A DNA stretch of 64,000 nucleotides from Candidatus Methanosuratincola sp. (GCA_014361455.1 JACIVP010000002.1:62001-126000); one strand, 5' to 3'; shown: positions 41,768 through 57,272, counted from the first letter of the stretch. Numbers and translations are program-made. The notes: generated from the letters alone by a model not told the origin.

Positions 41768-43576
41768 ATGTCGTTCGAGCATGATAGGATAGTAGGAGTC
41801 GTCAGAAGTTCCACACAGAGACTTATCGGAAATTTTGGGGCGAAGATCGAATCATTGAAGCGGTCATCTGAGTTCATCAGTAGCCTCATAAGAGGCGGGT
41901 ACAGCGCTGAGAGGGCGCTCTCTGCTGCAAGATCGCTTTTCGGTAAGGATGAGATCGGGTTCGTAGCCGTGGACGGTACGATGGCACAGGACAGGAGGCT
42001 CGACATGATAATCTTCTATGCTGGAGCCTATGCCTATCGAGGGGGAATCTGCCTAGATCGATCTGGATGCAAGTTGACTGAACTCATAGAGGAAACGACC
42101 TCGGCGAGCGTCTCATCCGCAATCCCAATATATGAGGAACAAGAATCGTCAGTGGCGGGGGAGATCACTGAAGGGGGAACAGAGATAGATCCGGATCGCC
42201 TTCCCAGCTCGCTGATGCGCCTCTCTGAGTACTACCTGGCGCTCAAAACGCTTGAGGACGATCCCGAGATCAGGTTGGCAATCTTAGACAGGACTCTTGC
42301 GGGCGACTTCGGGCACCTCGTCTGGAGTGCGCGCGAGTGGCTTGAGAGCGGGCATTCAGTCTTGGGCGGAGTCGACACGCCATTCGGCCGCGTCTCTGAG
42401 TTCGACTTGGAGATGGCGAGGATGCTCATCCCAAACGAAGGACTCGCATTGCCCCCTTCGAGGAGCCAGTTCATCAGGTATGCCATAGTTGAATATCTGC
42501 TCAGGGCGGGGAGGAGCGTCAGCAAGGATGAGCTAATCAATGCGATCTCGAAGACAGGGGAGAAGGCAGTTAGGATAAGGAGGGAGCTCGACAGGCTTCG
42601 GTCCGAGTATGGTATGTTGGAGCCGGGCGAGGAATGCAGACTCAAGCCCGGAGCTGGATCATACTGGAGCAGGGTTTTCTTTGCAGCCAAGAAGGTAGCC
42701 GAGCATGTCTTCAATCCCCCTCAAGGGGAGCATCCGCTTATCCTGAGTGGCGAGGGCGAAGATCGCTGGATATGCTCTAACGATCTCGATCTGGTCAGCC
42801 TTTTCATCACCCAGGGACTGCTCAGGAATGCCTGGGGCAGAGGCGTACTCTTGGTCGGGCTTGTCAAGGACACCATGGCCTATGAGCTGATCCGTTCAGT
42901 ATCCAATGTCCTGTCCAAGACAGGTAAGCTTGGATCGATGGGCAGCGTGCCTGACTTCAATAGCGACAAGGCTGTGCTCCAGAATTACAGCGTGATAGAG
43001 GCGCAGAGGCTAAATGCCCCTTGGAGGACTATCGAGTATGACGCATGCTTCAGGACAGTCATCCCAGAGGACGGGAAGTCAAATGCAGGACGGGGAGTGA
43101 GGGTCAAGGGTGCGCATAAGAACGTGATCTCGAACGAGAGGACCTTCGTCAAGGCATACCTGCAGCTCTGGCAAAGCAGCAATGATCCGGCAGTAAGGAG
43201 TCACGTATTTGCATATGACAGACCGTGCTACCCGGGGCTAGACAGCTACGGGGAGTTCGTCCTTCTGCACCAGGATGGAGATGCGGAAGAGACAATCGAG
43301 CCGGTATTGGAATTCGATAGTGGGAGCCCGGTTGCGGACCTGGTCATGGCAATACTCTATTCGATGGCAGGCGAGGTCATACCTGAGGCGCTGGGCTACA
43401 ACTTTCCCCTGTTTCTGGCCGACAAGAAGGCAAAATTTGTTTTGGAGGGGGCCAGACAGACTTACCTTTCGACGGTTGCGTACGAACTGGCCAGGAGTAG
43501 GCTCGACCAGCAAATCTTATTCAACACCAGGTTCAGAGATTTCAGATCTGAGATTGAGGCGATGAGGAGGGGATGA
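41768..43576 (+). CDS. nurA: NurA-domain nuclease, unusually long
   Basis: 602 residues. NurA nucleases resect DNA ends together with HerA. Seen: the first metal motif FVAVDGTMAQD (D69), the second LAILDRTLAGD (D174), and the C-terminal EALGYNFPLFLADKKA block with its conserved Asp. NurA proteins are usually 350-450 residues; here a winged-helix-like insert sits around 240-300 (FIRYAIVEYLLRAGRSVSKDELINAI). A TATA-like TATTAAATATT lies at 41711-41725. The stop overlaps the HerA gene by four bases. Confidence 0.85.
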   Translation: MSFEHDRIVGVVRSSTQRLIGNFGAKIESLKRSSEFISSLIRGGYSAERALSAARSLFGKDEIGFVAVDGTMAQDRRLDMIIFYAGAYAYRGGICLDRSGCKLTELIEETTSASVSSAIPIYEEQESSVAGEITEGGTEIDPDRLPSSLMRLSEYYLALKTLEDDPEIRLAILDRTLAGDFGHLVWSAREWLESGHSVLGGVDTPFGRVSEFDLEMARMLIPNEGLALPPSRSQFIRYAIVEYLLRAGRSVSKDELINAISKTGEKAVRIRRELDRLRSEYGMLEPGEECRLKPGAGSYWSRVFFAAKKVAEHVFNPPQGEHPLILSGEGEDRWICSNDLDLVSLFITQGLLRNAWGRGVLLVGLVKDTMAYELIRSVSNVLSKTGKLGSMGSVPDFNSDKAVLQNYSVIEAQRLNAPWRTIEYDACFRTVIPEDGKSNAGRGVRVKGAHKNVISNERTFVKAYLQLWQSSNDPAVRSHVFAYDRPCYPGLDSYGEFVLLHQDGDAEETIEPVLEFDSGSPVADLVMAILYSMAGEVIPEALGYNFPLFLADKKAKFVLEGARQTYLSTVAYELARSRLDQQILFNTRFRDFRSEIEAMRRG

Positions 43577-45378
43577 GCTTGGATTTCTTCGATGACCTGG
43601 ATGGGAAGTTCGTGGCAAGGCTACGAGAGATCCATTCCGCCACTAGGACCACCTCGGATGGCAAGGCTATGATAACATTCCGCACCGCGAGGGTGGAGGC
43701 GGAGTACAACCCGGAGGTCATGAGGAAGATAGAGGCTGGCAGGCTGGTGGCGATACCGAACATAATGGGCGTCGGCACGAATGACTCTTTCTCGATCTAT
43801 GAGATCGCAGATCTCTATCCCATGCACTACAGTATGCTGACGCTCGACAGGAGCCAGCCGAGCATGATAAGGAAGGAGTTCATGAGCCTCATAGAGGCGG
43901 AGTGGCAGAAGGGATCCAAGAGCACATGGATCGAGATAGCGGCGGCACCTACGGGGCATGTCATGAAGATCGAAGGAGATGCCCCGAGCTTCCTTAGGAA
44001 GAACATCGCGCCCCTCCCTGGATCAAAGGTTTCGCTGCTCAGCAAGGAACTGATAAAGAAGTTCATCTGTTATTCTCCTGGCGATGGAAGCGAGGACAGG
44101 TATGTGGTTGGAAAGCTTCTCGGAGTTGCCGACGATGAGATGCCATTCACGGTAAACATCGAGAAGCTCCTCCACTACCACGTCGGCGTCTTCGCTTTCA
44201 CTGGATCAGGGAAGAGCAACCTCACCTCGCTAGTGATTAGGAAGGCGGTAAGGGCATATCCTGACTTAAAGGTGGTTATTTTTGATGTCTCGTCAGAGTA
44301 TGGGGTAAGCATACTAGACCTCCTGTGCGATGTCCAGAGTAGGATCCTCTTCACCGAGGAGATCTCCGAGGCTGACACCATGGAGGCGGCAGAGGAGTAC
44401 TACAGAAGGCACGTGGTCCCCGAATCGCTTTCAGGAAGGAAGGATGAGCTGATCGTTCGCATCAGGGACCTTTTCAAAGAGAGAAGGGTGCTGAGGATAT
44501 CCCTGCCTTCGATGGAAGCCCGGAGGATGGGCATATACAGGACATATGGCGGGCTTCTCGATATCATCTCAGGCCTGCTGGAGGAGAAGTATGGGGCATC
44601 GGCGCAGAAGGTTATTGTGCCGGCAGTGATGGAGAAGATCAACGATTTCTTGGAGAGAAATGGAATTGATCAAGAGGCGCGGATCGGGGAAGAGGCTGAA
44701 CCGCTGATCTGTGATGTAGAACAGTTGTTCGGGAAGGCGAAGCTCAGGGAGGATGCGGCAATCAAGACTATCTTCCACAACCTCAAGGTGGTGATAAGCG
44801 AGTCCAAAGAGGGGGCGAAGGAGGGATATACCATCCGCAGCCTCACCTCTGAGATCATGGACATGAAGGAGAAAGCTCCGAGAGTTTTCGTGATAAACCT
44901 CCCAGACGTCGAGAATGCACGGAGCCTCTGCGCCGACCTGATACGTGAAGTTTTCAGGGCAAAGAAGAAGAGCTTTTCACTTGATCCGAGGGTAGTCTTC
45001 GTTTTCGACGAGGCACAGGAGTTCATACCGTATGAGAAGAAGAAGGAGGATGGGACGGAATACTCAAGCCTTGCGGTTGAACGGCTCCTCCGGCACGGCC
45101 GCAAGTACCACCTCCACGGCTGGATAAGCACCCAAAGGATAGCGCACCTCAACACGAACGTACTGCAGCAGCTGCACAGCTACTTCGTGAGCACGATGCC
45201 TAGACCATACGACAGGCAACTCATCTCAGACACATTCGCCATAGACGACGCTTTCATGGAAAGGACCCTGCTCTTCCAGAACGGGGACTGGCTGATGGCG
45301 AGCTTCAAGGCCACCAACACCCAGAACGTGCCGGTGTTCTTCCATGCATTCAACAACGAGGACTTTATTAGCACCTGA
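43573..45378 (+). CDS. herA: HerA-family DNA translocase/helicase
   Basis: 601 residues. Hexameric FtsK/HerA ATPase that works with NurA in double-strand break processing. N-terminal beta-barrel (HAS) domain about 1-180; Walker A GVFAFTGSGKSN (205-216, K214); Walker B VVFVFDEAQE (D479, E480); sensor-like RLLRHGRKYHLHGWISTQRIAHL with the Arg finger region. ATGA overlap with the NurA gene. The pair is complete and probably active. It is a second, separate set from the degenerate HerA-like protein at 51.6-53.0 kb. Confidence 0.92.
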   Translation: MSLDFFDDLDGKFVARLREIHSATRTTSDGKAMITFRTARVEAEYNPEVMRKIEAGRLVAIPNIMGVGTNDSFSIYEIADLYPMHYSMLTLDRSQPSMIRKEFMSLIEAEWQKGSKSTWIEIAAAPTGHVMKIEGDAPSFLRKNIAPLPGSKVSLLSKELIKKFICYSPGDGSEDRYVVGKLLGVADDEMPFTVNIEKLLHYHVGVFAFTGSGKSNLTSLVIRKAVRAYPDLKVVIFDVSSEYGVSILDLLCDVQSRILFTEEISEADTMEAAEEYYRRHVVPESLSGRKDELIVRIRDLFKERRVLRISLPSMEARRMGIYRTYGGLLDIISGLLEEKYGASAQKVIVPAVMEKINDFLERNGIDQEARIGEEAEPLICDVEQLFGKAKLREDAAIKTIFHNLKVVISESKEGAKEGYTIRSLTSEIMDMKEKAPRVFVINLPDVENARSLCADLIREVFRAKKKSFSLDPRVVFVFDEAQEFIPYEKKKEDGTEYSSLAVERLLRHGRKYHLHGWISTQRIAHLNTNVLQQLHSYFVSTMPRPYDRQLISDTFAIDDAFMERTLLFQNGDWLMASFKATNTQNVPVFFHAFNNEDFIST

Positions 45379-50235: not shown

Positions 50236-50877
50236 TCAAAGCAGGTTATCACCCCTGATTCTAGAAATGGTTCGGCGGAAGGATCTGATCAGCAGCCAAA
50301 GTGCCAACCCTATTGATATGTAGACCAGAGAGATTGTGAAAGAGGCGAAGAATGCTATAGGGCTGGAGCTGAAGGGGATCAGGTATGCCAAGAAAGAGAT
50401 CACGAAGGCGGTGGTGATAGTCGCCTTTACGACGTCCCTGAGGCTCTTTAAGAGGAACGCCGAGGCTATTCCGAAGAGGATCCCCATTCCAAATATGTGA
50501 AACGGATAGACATACTGGTTTATAATGAAATAGAGTGCCCCGGCAGCGGTGGAGAAGACTGCCCAGAGATAGCTCTGCCCTCTCACCTCCGACCTGTCTG
50601 TGGCTGGGGGCGGTGCTCCAGTATCTGGGGCGCCCTCTAGGTACTGTATGGAAAGAGGCGTTGCATGGTAGTAGTAGACCCTGTCGCGCATCTCCCGGGA
50701 GATCAGCCCGAGCCTGAGCAGCATCGAGAGGTGGGACTCGACCGTGCTCCTGGATCGGCCCACTGCTGCCGCGATCTCATCCCCGGTAAGCTCCTTCTTG
50801 ATGAGTGCGACCACTATGTCATACCTTGTCCTCTCGCCCAGTGCGTCCATCACTTCGCGCCGATGATCATCGTCCAT
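50236..50877 (-). CDS. Membrane-tethered winged-helix regulator
   Basis: 213 residues. Residues 1-75 form an ArsR-like winged helix (MDALGERTRYDIVVALIKKELTGDEIAAAVGRSRSTVESHLSML); after a Pro-rich linker there are four hydrophobic helices (about 102-215) ending in a basic tail. The DNA-binding part faces the cytoplasm, so it probably reads a membrane signal. ATG at 50877 is leaderless behind the TATA-like TAGATAAATAAG at about 50905. Divergent from the radA-containing operon, which it might control. Confidence 0.85.
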   Translation of the reverse strand: MDDDHRREVMDALGERTRYDIVVALIKKELTGDEIAAAVGRSRSTVESHLSMLLRLGLISREMRDRVYYYHATPLSIQYLEGAPDTGAPPPATDRSEVRGQSYLWAVFSTAAGALYFIINQYVYPFHIFGMGILFGIASAFLLKSLRDVVKATITTAFVISFLAYLIPFSSSPIAFFASFTISLVYISIGLALWLLIRSFRRTISRIRGDNLL

Positions 50878-51016
50878 AATCGGAACTGCGTGCACACCAC
50901 TTATTTATCTAACTTTCTAAGGTCAGGATTCTAAGTTTCTAGAAAAGCCGAATCGAGAGAGGACGAAAGATCGCTTAAATCGGGCGGCTAGCGAGTTTTG
51001 CTTGAAGGGCTCGAAG

Positions 51017-51634
51017 ATGGCCTTGTGGTCTTCGCTGCTGAAGTGGATGATAGTCGGTGCAGTATTCGTCATGTTCCCATGGACTATGCTGGTAGCAGTG
51101 CTCTACTTGGCAGTCAAATCAGGAGTCCTCACAAGAACCCTGAACCTCATGCGCGGTCTCTGGAAGAGGGGGATGGTCTTGGACCGGATGAACGACTGGA
51201 GGGTCCGCCGGTGCAAGTCCCTCGATAAAGAGAGCTTCGAGTTGGATTACTACCTCCCAAGCGGTGCTTCTCCATACATAATCATGTTAAATGGGGCAGG
51301 ATTCCTCTGCATTTCGTCTTTCAGTATAGTAGAGAGATCGAAGTCACCTGAGACATACAGGAAGGCTGTGAGCGAGATCCTTAAGACGTTCGGAGGGGGC
51401 GCCAGGACCATATCATTCGTCGGGACCGCGACTGATAACGGGGATTTCCTCAACAGCCTTCAGATCGTCTCGAGGCACGGACCAGCGATAGATGCCAAGT
51501 TCGAGAGGGCTGGGATCAAGCAGATGGAACTACTTGAAATTGCCAGGGAGGTGGTCAATGCGATCTCACCAACAGCGAGCATCAGGATCCACAGGGGGAA
51601 GGAGATAATACGGAATCCGATGGTGATCCAATGA
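51017..51634 (+). CDS. Membrane protein heading the radA operon
   Basis: 205 residues from ATG at 51017 (TTG at 51002 possible; TATA-like CTTAAATCGG near 50974). One long or two short hydrophobic segments at 8-40 (MIVGAVFVMFPWTMLVAVLYLAV), then a basic region and a soluble alpha/beta domain (SPYIIMLNGAGFLCISSFSI, YRKAVSEILKTFGGGARTISFVGTATDNGDF). The soluble part and its position before a HerA/VirB4-like protein suggest it corresponds to the N-terminal domain of VirB4-type ATPases, split off and membrane-anchored. That is inference. ATGA overlap with the next gene. Confidence 0.75.
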   Translation: MALWSSLLKWMIVGAVFVMFPWTMLVAVLYLAVKSGVLTRTLNLMRGLWKRGMVLDRMNDWRVRRCKSLDKESFELDYYLPSGASPYIIMLNGAGFLCISSFSIVERSKSPETYRKAVSEILKTFGGGARTISFVGTATDNGDFLNSLQIVSRHGPAIDAKFERAGIKQMELLEIAREVVNAISPTASIRIHRGKEIIRNPMVIQ

Positions 51635-53031
51635 GGCACACCGAAGCCGAGGGTGCTCTGGAAGGCCTGTTCTCTGATGGGGCATGCACATGGTGCGGTC
51701 GTGCTGGAGAACGCCTCTCTGGAGAGTTCGGCCTAGAAAGGGATGAGCTGAAGAGATGTTGCATCACGGGCATCGGCCCTGAGAGGGCGGATGCCGCAAT
51801 GGAGCTAGTGCTCAGGTGCTCTGAGGCAGGCGAGAGGCTCTTGATCATAGACATGACAGGAAATTACCTTGGGCTCGTGGGCTACATGCCGTCGCTGAGA
51901 GTCTACCGGGTCTGGAGGAATTTCCAGACAAACCCATTCAGCGCCTCCCGGAGGGGCTTCCCCGAGCTGGTCAGTGCGACCGTCCAAGCAGTGCTCAGGA
52001 CGACGAGGAGCGAGAGGGTTTACCTAGAGAGGGCGCTGCAGCTGGCGCTCTCCCAGGGCAGAGAGAGCCCAAAGACATCAGATATCCTAGAAAAACTGCT
52101 CCAGATCGAGGCCGAAGTGCACCCCAGACAGGGTCAAATCATAGATGGTCTTAGGAATGCGCTGTGGGAGCTGCAGGCGTTTGATCGTCAGATCCCTCAG
52201 AAGGAAGTGCTGGCGCCGGCCCTGATTGATATCCCGAAGGCATGCTCGATCATGGTTTGCAGGCTTGCAGCAATGGATCTCTTCTTGAACTTACCGCACG
52301 ATGCAACAGGGGTGGTGATCGACCCCGCTGACAGGATATTCCCCAGGGACGCACCCGAGGAGCTCTCCGAGGCCTTGGAGACCAGCGCTGACGAGCTGGC
52401 AAAGAAGGGGACCCTCCTAGTCATGGCAAATTCCACCACTTCATCACTCCCACGCTGGATAACCGACACACTCTCTTCGGAGATAAGGTGCGGAACCGTT
52501 TTGCGCGACCGAGACGGCAGTAAGGCCCGCGACTGCACAGATCCAAAGAAACAGGGGGGGAAGGCACCCAGTTTCGGCAGGTCATGGTCGTTCGGCGGCG
52601 GGGGAGATCCCCTGCTCATTGCCTCACGCTACTCCGAATCGGTGCATGCGGTCAGGATAAGGAGAACCGAATTCAAGCCCATCACGGACGAGGAGATCGA
52701 GCTACATATGAGAAGCCTGGGTGAGAGCTTTGAGGCGCATAAGGAGGGGGAGAAGAAGGCGACACTTCTTGAGAGGATCTTCGCAGACAGCTCGTTGCGC
52801 CGGAGCGCGCGGGATCTGATGGCGCTGATAAGGGGCGGGAGGGTCCCGGTCGACGCGGTGACGAAGCAAAGGAGTGGCGCCCTGAAGAGGGTGATCAGGA
52901 CGCTCTCGAAATACTTCCTGGTAGTCGAGTTTGCTGACGGAAGCGGAACCAACTGGTATAAGCTGACAAAGGCCGGGGAGCGGGCCCTTGAGGAGGAGGA
53001 AGATGAAAATGAGGGTGAAGTACATATCTGA
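51631..53031 (+). CDS. HerA/VirB4-like ATPase homologue with degenerate Walker motifs
   Basis: 466 residues. The order of segments follows HerA/VirB4 ATPases: LLIIDMTGNYLGLV (normally viDptGEY), NPFSASRRGFPELVSATVQAVL, YLERALQLAL, VVIDPADRIFPRDAPEEL (Walker B region) and KKGTLLVMANSTTSSLPRWI (Gln/Asn sensor). But the P-loop position reads GIGPERADA instead of GxxGxGKS/T, and Walker B has DPA instead of DEA. ATP hydrolysis is therefore unlikely. The N-terminus has CTWC and RCC cysteines; residues 395-460 form a winged helix. Overlaps the genes on both sides. Confidence 0.75.
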   Translation: MRHTEAEGALEGLFSDGACTWCGRAGERLSGEFGLERDELKRCCITGIGPERADAAMELVLRCSEAGERLLIIDMTGNYLGLVGYMPSLRVYRVWRNFQTNPFSASRRGFPELVSATVQAVLRTTRSERVYLERALQLALSQGRESPKTSDILEKLLQIEAEVHPRQGQIIDGLRNALWELQAFDRQIPQKEVLAPALIDIPKACSIMVCRLAAMDLFLNLPHDATGVVIDPADRIFPRDAPEELSEALETSADELAKKGTLLVMANSTTSSLPRWITDTLSSEIRCGTVLRDRDGSKARDCTDPKKQGGKAPSFGRSWSFGGGGDPLLIASRYSESVHAVRIRRTEFKPITDEEIELHMRSLGESFEAHKEGEKKATLLERIFADSSLRRSARDLMALIRGGRVPVDAVTKQRSGALKRVIRTLSKYFLVVEFADGSGTNWYKLTKAGERALEEEEDENEGEVHI

Positions 53032-53320
53032 AAACAGGATCTACTGGAGCCTGGGCAGGGACCAAGGCGACCAAGTTCTCGGTGTCGAGGTCTTTGCAGT
53101 AGGAAAGGACAGAATAAGGAGAACCGTTTTTTCGAGAGGTAAGTTCGGGAAGGAGACGAGGATAGCTGAAGAGGAATACAACACCGAGGAGTTTTTGGAG
53201 ATAATCGGGGCAGAGAGATCGGTTGCCCAAAGGCAAGGCAACGGCGAAAAGGAGGGCAATGGCAAGGAGCTCCTTCTGGACGCGATCGAGATCATAAGGA
53301 GGGTCTACAATGGGCTGTGA
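53003..53320 (+). CDS. Small unknown protein between the HerA-like gene and radA
   Basis: 105 residues from ATG at 53003, inside the tail of the preceding gene, with GGAGGAGG just upstream. Beta-strand-rich first half (VKYISENRIYWSLGRDQGDQ, GVEVFAVGKDRIRRTVFSRG) and a charged Gly/Asn/Lys linker before a terminal helix. Overlaps radA by 11 bases. Not recognised; strict co-translation suggests a partner of RadA or of the HerA-like protein. Confidence 0.7.
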   Translation: MKMRVKYISENRIYWSLGRDQGDQVLGVEVFAVGKDRIRRTVFSRGKFGKETRIAEEEYNTEEFLEIIGAERSVAQRQGNGEKEGNGKELLLDAIEIIRRVYNGL

Positions 53321-54278
53321 AGATGGCGAGGAAGGGCTTGAGCTGGAGGATCTTGAAGGGATAGGATCTGCGACTGCGGAGAAGCTTAGGAGAGCGGGCA
53401 TAAACACGGTGAAGCAGCTGGCCTGCATCCCAGCAAGGGAACTCGAGGAGATAAGCGAGCTGGCAGAGGGGAAGGCAGGGGAGGCTGTAAGGAGCGCCAG
53501 GGAGGCGGTCTTCCCGAAGGTCATGACCGCGAGGGAGTACCTTGAGAAGAGGAAGGAGATCCGGTTCCTGACCACAGGCTCGAAGAACCTTGACAACCTG
53601 CTCTGCGGGGGGCTGGAGCCAGGGATCACAGAGCTCATTGGCGCGTATGGGACTGGGAAGACCCAGGTCTGCCTCCAGCTCTGCCTCACCGTGCAGCTAA
53701 CCAGGAACAGAGGGGGGCTGGACGGGGCGGCATTCTACATCGACACCGAGGACACGTTCAAGCCAGAAAGGCTCTACCCAATGGCAAAGGCGCTTGGGCT
53801 CGAGGGCGACCAGATACTGGACCGCGTCCATGTCTTCAGGGCAATCAACTCGGACCATCAGTTCGAGGGGCTCAGGATCGCCCAAGAGTATGCGGCAGAC
53901 AGAAAGGCAAATCTTATCATCGTGGATTCGCTCACAGCACACTTCCGCGCGGAGTACTCTGGGAGGGAGAACTTGGTTTCGAGGCAGCAGAGGCTGAACA
54001 CGTTCATACACCAGCTGCAAAGGGTCTCGACGATGTACGATGCCATAATCGTCGTTACGAATCAGATCTTGGATATCCCCGAAGTCATACCAGGAGTGAA
54101 GCCTGCGAGGCCTGCTGGAGGGAACGTCGTGGCGCACGGGTGCACCTTCAGGCTTTGGCTTGAGAGGTCCAAGGGCATGACAAGGGTCAGCGTAATCGAC
54201 TCCCCGAAACACCCGAAGAACACGGCCTGGGTCATGCTGACTGAGGCGGGAGTCTCTGACGTGGAAGCACCAAGGTGA
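53310..54278 (+). CDS. radA: RadA recombinase
   Basis: 322 residues. Archaeal Rad51/RecA-type strand-exchange protein. N-terminal helix-hairpin-helix domain (LEDLEGIGSATAEKLRRAGI, 12-31), linker with a FxxA-like polymerisation region, Walker A GAYGTGKTQ (111-119), Walker B NLIIVDSLTAHFRAEY, and the L2 region VVTNQILDIPEVIPGVKPARPAGGN followed by ATP-cap block WLERSKGMTRVSVIDSPKHP. All catalytic parts are intact. Embedded in a five-gene overlapping operon, unlike the stand-alone radA of many archaea. The last four bases overlap the next gene (GTGA). Confidence 0.95.
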   Translation: MGCEDGEEGLELEDLEGIGSATAEKLRRAGINTVKQLACIPARELEEISELAEGKAGEAVRSAREAVFPKVMTAREYLEKRKEIRFLTTGSKNLDNLLCGGLEPGITELIGAYGTGKTQVCLQLCLTVQLTRNRGGLDGAAFYIDTEDTFKPERLYPMAKALGLEGDQILDRVHVFRAINSDHQFEGLRIAQEYAADRKANLIIVDSLTAHFRAEYSGRENLVSRQQRLNTFIHQLQRVSTMYDAIIVVTNQILDIPEVIPGVKPARPAGGNVVAHGCTFRLWLERSKGMTRVSVIDSPKHPKNTAWVMLTEAGVSDVEAPR

Positions 54279-54805
54279 GGGGGCATGACTGCTTGGGACC
54301 CACCTTCCCACATTACGGCCCCGCTGGCTGGCAGAACTTGCTACTTTATGGGGATAGGAATGTGGCGAGGGGGATCGCACTCAGGGCTTGCATCAAGGAG
54401 GGGCGCGCAGGGGGGAAGGCGTTGTACATGCAACAGAGGATGATTACTATTGACGATTCCGCGTTTCGCTCATCAGGAGGATCGGAAAATGTCGTCTTAG
54501 GGGTTTTCGATTCGCTGGGTGAGGTTGCAAACCTGATCTCCAATATAAGGCCCTCCGTCGCGGTCATAGACCCGGCGAACGGTGCCACCGGGAGGTGGGG
54601 TGCGCATAGGCGACTGGCCTTGGATCTCTTTGAAATAGCAACCGCGGCGGATAGGATCCATGTAAGGCTCATACTCCTCTGCGAGATGACGGAGTGGAAC
54701 GGGACTTCGAGACTGAGGCATTATGCCACAATCAGGAAATTCTGTGATCAGGAGTTGGAAGTCTCAGCGGATCCATTGGCAAAGGGAGATAAATTAAATG
54801 GATAG
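54275..54805 (+). CDS. RecA-fold protein with degenerate P-loop
   Basis: 176 residues from GTG at 54275. Reads as the core of a RecA/RadB/KaiC domain: NLLLYGDRNVARGIALRACIKEGRAGGKALYM where YGDRNVARGI stands in place of a Walker A loop, then SLGEVANLISNIRPSVAVIDP as Walker B, and VRLILLCEMTEWNG after it. The P-loop lysine and glycines are lost, so nucleotide binding is doubtful. Likely a non-catalytic RadA paralogue, as in mediator proteins of other systems. Co-translated with radA. Confidence 0.7.
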   Translation: MRGHDCLGPTFPHYGPAGWQNLLLYGDRNVARGIALRACIKEGRAGGKALYMQQRMITIDDSAFRSSGGSENVVLGVFDSLGEVANLISNIRPSVAVIDPANGATGRWGAHRRLALDLFEIATAADRIHVRLILLCEMTEWNGTSRLRHYATIRKFCDQELEVSADPLAKGDKLNG

Positions 54806-54857: not shown

Positions 54858-57245
54858 TCACTCCAGAAGTTCGAATACATTGCTCTTGTTTGACTTTACC
54901 AGGCGCTCCATCAGCACCTTCCTCTCGACGCCGGCGACCACTTTCCTTGTCCAGACGACCATGTCTGGGTTCGCGCTTATGCTGTCGATGCCTGCCCTCA
55001 CCAAGGTCTCTGTAAGGTCGGGGTATACGCTCGGTCCCTGCCCGCAGATGCTGACTGTCACCCCATGCGAGTGCGCCACCTTTATCAAGTGCGTGATTGC
55101 CCTGATTACTGCCGGATCCCTCTCGTCGAAGTACCTAGAGTCCTGCGCAGGGAGTATTGGTGAATCCCTGTCTACCCCGAGGATGAGCTGCGTCAGGTCG
55201 TTGCTGCCTACGCTGAACCCGTCGCAGATCTTCGAGAATTCGTCTGCCATGAAGATTATTGAAGGTATCTCTGCCATCAGCCACACCTTGAAGTCGCGAT
55301 CCCTCTCGAGCCCCTCTTCCTTCATTATCCCCAAGCAGGACTCGACTTCCCAAGTCGTCCTTACGAAGGGGAGCATCACCCAAACGTTCTTCAGCCCCCA
55401 CTCGTCCCTCACGCGCTTGATCGCCCTGCACTCAAGCCTGAATGCCGGGGAGTATACCTCCGAGATGTAGCGGCTAACCCCCCTCCACCCAATCATCGGG
55501 TTCGCCTCCTGCGGCTCGTACTTGTCTCCTCCGACGAGCTGGCGGTACTCGTTGGTCTTGAAGTCGCTGAACCTGACCACGAGCGGTCTCGGGTGTATCT
55601 CCCTTGCCACCTTTGAGATGCCGGTAGCGAGCCTGTCTATGAACTTCTCATCCTGTTTTGTTTCTATAAGATGGAGGGGGTGCTCCCCCACTACGTCCGC
55701 AATGATGAACTCGACCCGCATCAGCCCTATCCCATCGAACGGCAGATCCCGGTACTTTTCGATCATTCCTGGCTCTCCCAAGTTCATGTAGATCTTGGTC
55801 GCAGTCGGATAGTAGGACTCTGCGCTGACCGCAGACTTCGTGGGTACCACTGGCTTCTCCTCGGGCCCGATCAGGTCTCCTTCATAGACCACGCCGTGCG
55901 TCGCATCGACGGTGATCACTTGCCCTGTCTTGAGGACCTTAGTGGCCTCCTTAGTCCCCACTATGCATGGGATCCCCAACTCCCTGCTCACAATCGCGGC
56001 GTGGCACGTCTTGCCTCCGCTGTCGGTGATTATCGCGAGCGCCTTGCGCATGGCCGGCGCCCAGTCAGGAGAAGTCATCTCGGTGACGAGTATCTCGCCG
56101 GTCTGGAACTCCCTGATGTGCTTTGTGTCAATGATTACATGTGCCTTCCCAGAGACCAATCCCGGGGATGCTGGAACGCCCCTCAGGAGGCGCTTGACCC
56201 CGCTCTCCATCCGATCCACTTTTTTATCTTCGGGCGCAGCCTCCTGTTTCATCGACCATACCGTCTCGGGCCTGGCCTGGACTATGTACAGCTTGCCATC
56301 GGAGTCGAGCGCCCACTCGATGTCCATCGCCATGCCGTAATGCTTCTCTATCTCAACCGCGTACTTTGCGAGTGCCAAGACCTGGTCGTCGGAGATGCAC
56401 GGTGCCTCGATCCTCTCTTTTGGGACTGGAATCTCCTTCAGGAAGCCCTCGCCGATGTCGGAAGGTGATCGGATTGCCATCGTCTCCTTCCTAGAAATGT
56501 TCCTTTCGATTATCCTCATGGTTTTCTTGTCGACAGTCCACTCGTCAGGACTCACCTTGCCCTGGACTATCATCTCCCCGATCCCCCATGTGCCCTCGAT
56601 GAGCACTACATCGCGGTTCCCGGTGGTTGGGTCGATGGTGAACATGACTCCCGAGGACTCGCTGTTGACCATCTTCTGAACGGCGACGCTTAGGTAAACT
56701 TTCATGTCGTCGAAGCCCTTCTCCTTCCTGTATGCGATCGCCCTCGGAGTGAATAGGGACGAGAAGCACTTGACAACATATTTAAGGAGCGCGGTCTCAC
56801 CAGATACGAAAAGGAAGGTGTCCTGCTGCCCTGCGAAGCTTGCTCCAGGGAGGTCTTCTGCGGTGGCACTGCTCCTGACAGCGACTGGGGGATGCCTGAC
56901 ATTTAGCATGTCTCCTAGCTTCCGGTAAGCCACGACGATCTCTTCCTCGAGATCCTTTGGCAAGGGGGCAGACTCGATTATCGACCGGATCTCGCGGGAG
57001 GAGGACTCCAAGGAGTCACTGTCCGTAACGTCCATTTTGGAGAGGACATCCTTGATCTTGTCCCAGAGGTTGTTTCTGTTTATGTGCAGCTTGTAAGCCT
57101 CAGCTGTTATGGCAAACCCTGGGGGGACGGGGATGCCAAAAGAGATCAGCTCCCCAAGGTTTGCGCATTTTCCTCCAACGAGCGGGATGTCTTCTTTTTT
57201 TAACGAGTCAAAAAACATTATGTACGACAATCTAGAACTGGCCAT
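54858..57245 (-). CDS. ppsA: Phosphoenolpyruvate synthase
   Basis: 795 residues from ATG at 57245 (GGTG upstream). Converts pyruvate, ATP and water to PEP, AMP and phosphate. N-terminal ATP-binding domain LVGGKCANLGEL, VRSSATAEDLPGASFAGQQDTFL; phosphohistidine domain GGKTCHAAIVSRELGIPCIVG; C-terminal PEP/pyruvate barrel with RVEFIIAD, ANPMIGWRGVSRY, GSNDLTQLILGVDRDSP and ICGQGPS. Key gene of gluconeogenesis here. A perfect 20-bp palindrome at 57253-57272 lies over the expected transcription start, so it is probably repressed or activated there. Confidence 0.97.
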   Translation of the reverse strand: MASSRLSYIMFFDSLKKEDIPLVGGKCANLGELISFGIPVPPGFAITAEAYKLHINRNNLWDKIKDVLSKMDVTDSDSLESSSREIRSIIESAPLPKDLEEEIVVAYRKLGDMLNVRHPPVAVRSSATAEDLPGASFAGQQDTFLFVSGETALLKYVVKCFSSLFTPRAIAYRKEKGFDDMKVYLSVAVQKMVNSESSGVMFTIDPTTGNRDVVLIEGTWGIGEMIVQGKVSPDEWTVDKKTMRIIERNISRKETMAIRSPSDIGEGFLKEIPVPKERIEAPCISDDQVLALAKYAVEIEKHYGMAMDIEWALDSDGKLYIVQARPETVWSMKQEAAPEDKKVDRMESGVKRLLRGVPASPGLVSGKAHVIIDTKHIREFQTGEILVTEMTSPDWAPAMRKALAIITDSGGKTCHAAIVSRELGIPCIVGTKEATKVLKTGQVITVDATHGVVYEGDLIGPEEKPVVPTKSAVSAESYYPTATKIYMNLGEPGMIEKYRDLPFDGIGLMRVEFIIADVVGEHPLHLIETKQDEKFIDRLATGISKVAREIHPRPLVVRFSDFKTNEYRQLVGGDKYEPQEANPMIGWRGVSRYISEVYSPAFRLECRAIKRVRDEWGLKNVWVMLPFVRTTWEVESCLGIMKEEGLERDRDFKVWLMAEIPSIIFMADEFSKICDGFSVGSNDLTQLILGVDRDSPILPAQDSRYFDERDPAVIRAITHLIKVAHSHGVTVSICGQGPSVYPDLTETLVRAGIDSISANPDMVVWTRKVVAGVERKVLMERLVKSNKSNVFELLE

Positions 57246-57252
57246 CGGCAGC

Positions 57253-57272
57253 ACCTTAAATCCATTTAAGGT
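57253..57272. promoter_or_regulatory. 20-bp perfect palindrome at the ppsA transcription start
   Basis: ACCTTAAAT-CC-ATTTAAGGT (9-2-9). The ppsA TATA-like CAAAAATATTAAG lies about 20 bases upstream on the minus strand, so a protein bound here would cover the start point. The Lrp-type regulator encoded about 200 bases away is one candidate. Confidence 0.55.

Follow-up and report, generated by a model that had tools for sequence, protein, structure and literature searches.

A conserved operon joining a RadA paralogue to an apparently split and inactive HerA/VirB4-type ATPase in Candidatus Methanosuratincola: a possible membrane-tethered recombination-mediator complex

What might an archaeal cell do with a RadA-like gene that shares an operon with a membrane protein and with degenerate relatives of DNA-pumping ATPases? 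The question is raised by a locus of the methanogenic archaeon Candidatus Methanosuratincola sp. (GCA_014361455.1, JACIVP010000002.1:62001-126000), a stretch of 64,000 nucleotides (nt) hereafter called the window, in which positions are counted from the first letter. An earlier note on this DNA had described five overlapping open reading frames at 51017-54805 as a radA operon, and all five were found at their places. As a whole, the analysis points to a membrane-tethered recombination-mediator complex around a second RadA, here called RadA2, which in the order of the window would most likely serve DNA imported by a pilus-like machine with a membrane HerA. This function is read from the genes alone, and its probability is put at roughly 0.55.

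On the plus strand, p1 (51017-51634; 205 amino acids (aa) from an ATG) encodes a membrane protein, p2 (51631-53031; 466 aa) a HerA/VirB4-family core that appears to be dead, p3 (53003-53320; 105 aa) a conserved protein, the fourth gene (53310-54278; 322 aa) the RadA-like RadA2, and p5 (54275-54805; 176 aa, GTG start) a protein with a degenerate P-loop-like motif. The successive overlaps p1/p2, p2/p3, p3/RadA2 and RadA2/p5 measure 4, 29, 11 and 4 nt, which suggests coupled translation; the strict stoichiometry that had been drawn from them does not follow. The arrangement is more than a matter of chance, since the gene order is kept in other families and the ratios of non-synonymous to synonymous substitution rates (dN/dS) lie between 0.04 and 0.33.

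Both p2 and RadA2 occur together in the same 17 of the 23 genomes of the order and are absent together from the same six, and the order p1-p2-p3-RadA2 is held in the 17 wherever the contig allows. Some module copies (G009, G006) are interrupted by assembly gaps, and G020 carries an additional, partly degraded second locus. A contig scan for the operon returned, among named relatives, Ca. Methanosuratincola subterraneus and a Methanomethylicota metagenome-assembled genome (L024, L025), as well as one short match that is probably unrelated. Profile searches also recovered the operon in families f5-f9 of the class and, in other parts of the phylum, in f45, f49, f50, f56 and f57; p2 is weak in f50, and in f57 it is short. 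The earlier note had proposed a survey of gene order: about 12 families of the phylum share the order p1-p2-p3-RadA2, and all five genes are under purifying selection, as their dN/dS values (NG86, within genus, several dS values being >1 and thus near saturation) are 0.04-0.06 for RadA2, 0.14-0.21 for p1, 0.14-0.24 for p2, 0.17-0.33 for p3 and 0.15-0.30 for p5. In the class of the window the operon is mostly single-copy, with neighbours kept across genera, namely a divergent winged helix-turn-helix (wHTH) regulator and often a ppsA-type gene.

Concerning RadA2, the Rad51 domain was recognised at E=4.7e-69 and an N-terminal HHH_5 domain at E=4.5e-5 (residues 11-56). Walker A (GAYGTGKTQ), Walker B (LIIVDSLTA) and the L1 loop (HFRAEYSGRENLVSRQQRLN) are conserved, L1 for the most part, and L2 has diverged. 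In RadA/Rad51, the phenylalanine of the FxxA motif inserts into the adjacent protomer and so links the two. At this site the RadA2 of the window reads VMTA, and the phenylalanine is found in 0/26 module RadAs vs. 23/23 canonical RadAs, the alanine being retained in 24 of the 26. The claim that RadA is intact therefore holds for Walker A, Walker B and L1, and fails at the FxxA motif.

The host genome has three Rad51-family matches, of which the best (G000:C57:2088-3020, minus strand) lies outside the window on the same contig and scores 320.7 bits against PF08423 vs. 233.6 bits for RadA2. This canonical RadA elsewhere in the genome rules out 51017-54805 as the main radA operon of the cell, and what had been called the radA operon is the operon of a RadA paralogue. 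A canonical RadA is present in every genome of the order, a second RadA in 17 of the 23. In a tree of 49 sequences, made without the RadB outgroup, which gave an extreme branch, the module RadAs split from the canonical ones with a support of 97/98. RadA2 scores 330.6 bits against TIGR02236, under its cut-off of 361.15, and passes the cut-off of PRK04301; against the RadB model it reaches 99.9 bits for a cut-off of 172.4, far below its score with the RadA model. The RadA paralogues aRadC/RadB are without the N-terminal helix-hairpin-helix (HhH) DNA-binding domain (PMC4080772), and by both tests, HhH domain present and RadB model under its cut-off, RadA2 is not one of them. It is an old second paralogue, separate from the canonical RadA of the cell.

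The motif losses that had been reported for p2 and p5 are read directly in the sequence. In p2, the P-loop position reads ITGIGPERADAAMEL and the Walker B position VVIDPADRIF. Even so, the protein was matched by DUF87 in the domain scan (E=0.002), by the membrane HerA of about 600 aa of the same genomes in HHalign profile comparison (E=9e-38) and by the solved VirB4 structure 4ag5 in a profile search of the PDB (E=2e-5), in agreement with the degenerate HerA/VirB4-type protein first proposed; its C-terminus weakly resembles a PadR-type winged helix. At the position aligned with the P-loop, Walker A is missing from all 29 p2 copies and present in all 19 HerA homologues, the sole p2 match to the Walker A expression being the extreme C-terminal tail of L071. 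Walker B is mostly gone as well, and VDEAHH persists in L185, as expected from the descent of p2 from an active ATPase. We infer, firmly as regards the core, that p2 is a catalytically dead HerA/VirB4-family ATPase core followed by a C-terminal winged helix.

For p1, an AlphaFold2 (AF2) model with a predicted local distance difference test (pLDDT) of 81 has two N-terminal hydrophobic helices and then an alpha/beta domain of b-b-a-b-b-a-b order. The p1 profile is collinear with that of the membrane-HerA N-terminal domain, with a score of 35.9, whereas the highest of 60 column-shuffled decoys scored 12.8, and p1 is probably the N-terminal half of a HerA/VirB4-type ATPase of the membrane that has become a separate protein. 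Since p2 matches the HerA core and p1 its N-terminal domain, the two together look like the halves of the intact membrane HerA of about 600 aa, split and dead.

The p3 protein is conserved in 29 aligned loci, and its AF2 model (pLDDT 86, predicted template-modelling score (pTM) 0.66) has five strands and two helices. The fast-evolving p5, which occurs in two genera (g1 and g4) of the window's family, bears a degenerate P-loop-like motif that reads LLLYGDRNVARGIALRA. Its group gave PDB matches at E<1 with just KaiC (E=0.04) and a KaiC-like protein (0.17), both weak; at the p5 position, a locus of a related family (L072) has a protein with the intact P-loop GEAGAGKT that matches RecA, and another locus (L103) a protein with a weak match to the RadA2 profile. 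From these weak hints p5 is likely a RecA-fold remnant.

In most families outside that of the window, the module has a further partner. A gene for a SWIM zinc-finger protein of about 100-133 aa is next after RadA2 in f2, f5-f9, f56 and f57; in f50 the SWIM gene comes before RadA instead, as does an extra gene. The 18 SWIM proteins checked all share the pattern CxC..CxHxx(A/S), which ends in A in 13 of them and in S in five; the SWS1/Shu2 signature is CXC..Xn..CXHXXA (PMC6316741). This partner and the canonical RadA had been missed at first because other genomes were needed to see them. In f45 and f49, the SWIM gene stands away from the module, convergent with a PEP-synthase-type gene (phosphoenolpyruvate synthase; PPDK_N E<1e-125) at L184:7133-9550 and L186:6912-9380; a PEP-synthase-type gene is also convergent with the operon of the window (54858-57254), and this shared neighbour suggests a broken-up ancestral neighbourhood. 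SWIM and RadA-paralogue genes pair outside the operon too. In genome G047 (L253, L254, L255), several near-alike clusters each combine genes for two ATPases, one a membrane protein of HerA/TraG type and the other TrwB-like, with a SWIM gene and a RadA paralogue, and look like a mobile or conjugative element.

The link to DNA import comes from another operon of the host genome (G000:C1; L260:3633-9019). There, a membrane HerA whose Walker A is intact is encoded together with a type II/IV secretion-type ATPase and two membrane proteins of several helices. This operon is a candidate for the pilus-like DNA-exchange machine of the lineage. An orthologue of this HerA (E<1e-50) was found in 17/17 genomes of the order that bear the module, as against 0/5 near-complete module-less genomes from three genera, and the secretion ATPase has the same presence pattern, except in G008 (59% complete). 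Import is the most likely job in this order because genomes that keep one gene set keep the other, and where one is lost both are. The Ced-type import link of the earlier note thus finds circumstantial backing in the shared presence and absence of the module with membrane HerA and secretion ATPase.

In the mechanism proposed here, p1 would anchor p2 in the membrane, and p2 would bind DNA or dock on an active pump without hydrolysing ATP. Together with p3 and p5, and elsewhere with the SWS1-like SWIM protein, RadA2 would seed, cap or remodel filaments of the canonical RadA at this membrane site, forming no long filaments itself. In the order of the window, DNA would enter via the machine of pilus and membrane HerA and then be recombined, possibly after being handed to the canonical RadA. 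A bolder version, which we put forward as a speculation and with considerable doubt, would make the dead split pump a docking platform where incoming single-stranded DNA passes from the pilus-linked membrane HerA to RadA2 and on to RadA, with the SWS1-like SWIM protein taking part elsewhere and the origin of Shu-type mediators placed before the eukaryotes.

Several observations weigh against a RadA2-centred mediator serving imported DNA. The HHalign match of p1 to the membrane-HerA N-terminal domain (E=2.8e-5) has a probability of just 74%, below 95%, and the PDB fold search with the p1 model gave no significant match and did not return VirB4; the likening of p1 to a split VirB4 N-terminal region finds some support in the collinear profile. 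The p3 model had no significant match in the PDB either, the best being Pur-alpha at E=0.13. HHalign profile comparison of p5 with RecA gave no signal, and the RecA fold that had been claimed for p5 is left with the weak KaiC-type matches and the RecA-like protein at the L072 position. In the family of the window (f1), no SWIM gene match was found in any genome with a home-made alignment profile, used since the SWIM model of Pfam lacks the sensitivity to find these proteins. As for import, G014 (73% complete) has membrane HerA and secretion ATPase with no module detected, and f5 and f6 have the module with no clear membrane-HerA orthologue. Also, in the canonical RadA tree g3 groups with g7 and g2 with g1, which implies about two parallel losses: the co-loss amounts to about two independent events, and the link that it suggests is circumstantial.

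The alternative that survives best is a general mediator of double-strand-break or replication-fork repair, resembling an archaeal Shu or Rad55-57 complex, with no import role and a membrane part that just localises repair. It is a possible reading, at rather less than an even chance. The SWIM partner in most families speaks for it, as do f5 and f6, with their module and no membrane-HerA orthologue, and the divergent uracil-DNA glycosylase family gene next to the module in L104. In L183, the module stands directly behind Mre11- and Rad50-type genes, a neighbourhood that ties it to recombination and not to import. General repair would, however, leave unexplained why p1 and p2, which are related to a membrane DNA pump and split, are there at all, and why the module is present or absent in step with the pilus-like/membrane-HerA operon.

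An improbable alternative is that the operon is left over from a plasmid or a conjugative system and has no role in host recombination. The multi-copy clusters of G047, which unite SWIM, RadA paralogue and ATPases of the type IV secretion system (T4SS) type, would suit such an origin, whereas the mostly single-copy operon in the class of the window, its neighbours conserved across genera and its purifying selection argue against it. Similarly improbable is RadA2 as a second active strand-exchange recombinase with incidental co-transcribed genes, which the intact Walker A/B and L1 and the strong Rad51 similarity would allow, but which has against it the FxxA phenylalanine lost in all module copies, the diverged L2 and the neighbours that travel with RadA2 in about 12 families.

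Regarding the surroundings of the operon, an ArsR-type winged-helix regulator gene (50236..50895, minus strand; HTH_5 E=2.7e-8), whose product has C-terminal hydrophobic, membrane segments, lies divergent to p1; its homologues adjoin p1 in about 20 of the 31 loci examined, and the protein is probably a regulator or a partner of the operon. In family f9 its place is taken by the uracil-DNA glycosylase family gene, which adjoins p1 in divergent orientation (L104:6316-6933, the copy scanned, and L108:9993-10619). A protein of about 170 aa is encoded right after the RadA paralogue in f50 (L189:119-643 and L190:9239-9751), where its VIEVKSY motif recalls that of PD-(D/E)XK nucleases, and in G164 (L257:7230-7745); the L190 and L257 copies had no Pfam match. 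Some 5.6 kb upstream of the operon, the window also encodes a 601-aa HerA-type protein (43573-45378; DUF87 E=1e-16). A known anti-phage system was considered and rejected, PADLOC giving just a weak partial mad8 match, on RadA. Sigma-70 promoter and terminator scans were uninformative for an archaeal host.

The open-access literature searched contained no account of this operon; subscription papers were mostly outside this search, so that a prior description is possible. The operon touches two open questions, namely how recombination is coupled to the uptake of DNA in archaea and what gave rise to the Rad51-paralogue and Shu complexes of eukaryotes. With RadA2, a probably membrane-anchored dead pump core and, in most families outside that of the window, a SWIM protein in one operon, both become testable with a few purified proteins. 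If the bolder version is true, DNA import and recombination would be physically joined in a new kind of archaeal machine, and the SWS1-like SWIM protein in the same complex would mean that Shu-type mediators arose earlier than the eukaryotes. There is also a consequence for annotation: RadA2 would be called RadA because it passes the broad PRK04301 model, though each genome has another RadA.

Four known systems bear comparison with the module. DNA exchange by the Ced and Ted systems depends on ATPases that resemble VirB4/HerA, and genes for HerA and Rad50 are often present at Ted loci (PMC9905601). The p2 protein, and probably p1, are related to the membrane HerA/VirB4-type ATPases, the class of CedB/TedB; unlike these, the ATPase is split in two genes, is without Walker A, carries a winged helix and shares its operon with a RadA paralogue. 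This comparison covers the membrane HerA and the secretion ATPase. With the HerA-NurA-Mre11-Rad50 end-resection machinery the module shares a HerA-family core and, in one lineage, a position behind Mre11-/Rad50-type genes, but p2 is not a working ATPase and the operon of the window has no nuclease. The Shu complex (SWS1-SWSAP1; in yeast, Shu2 with Csm2-Psy3-Shu1) is alike in that a SWIM protein with CXC..CXHXXA stands beside a RadA-family paralogue in most related families, a likeness to eukaryotic SWS1 that is one of signature; the module differs by its membrane protein and dead HerA/VirB4 core, and the family of the window by having no SWIM gene. Finally, RadB/aRadC and RadA2 are alike as RadA-family ATPases thought to assist RadA, whereas RadA2 still has its N-terminal HhH domain, resembles RadA much more closely and belongs to the operon described here.

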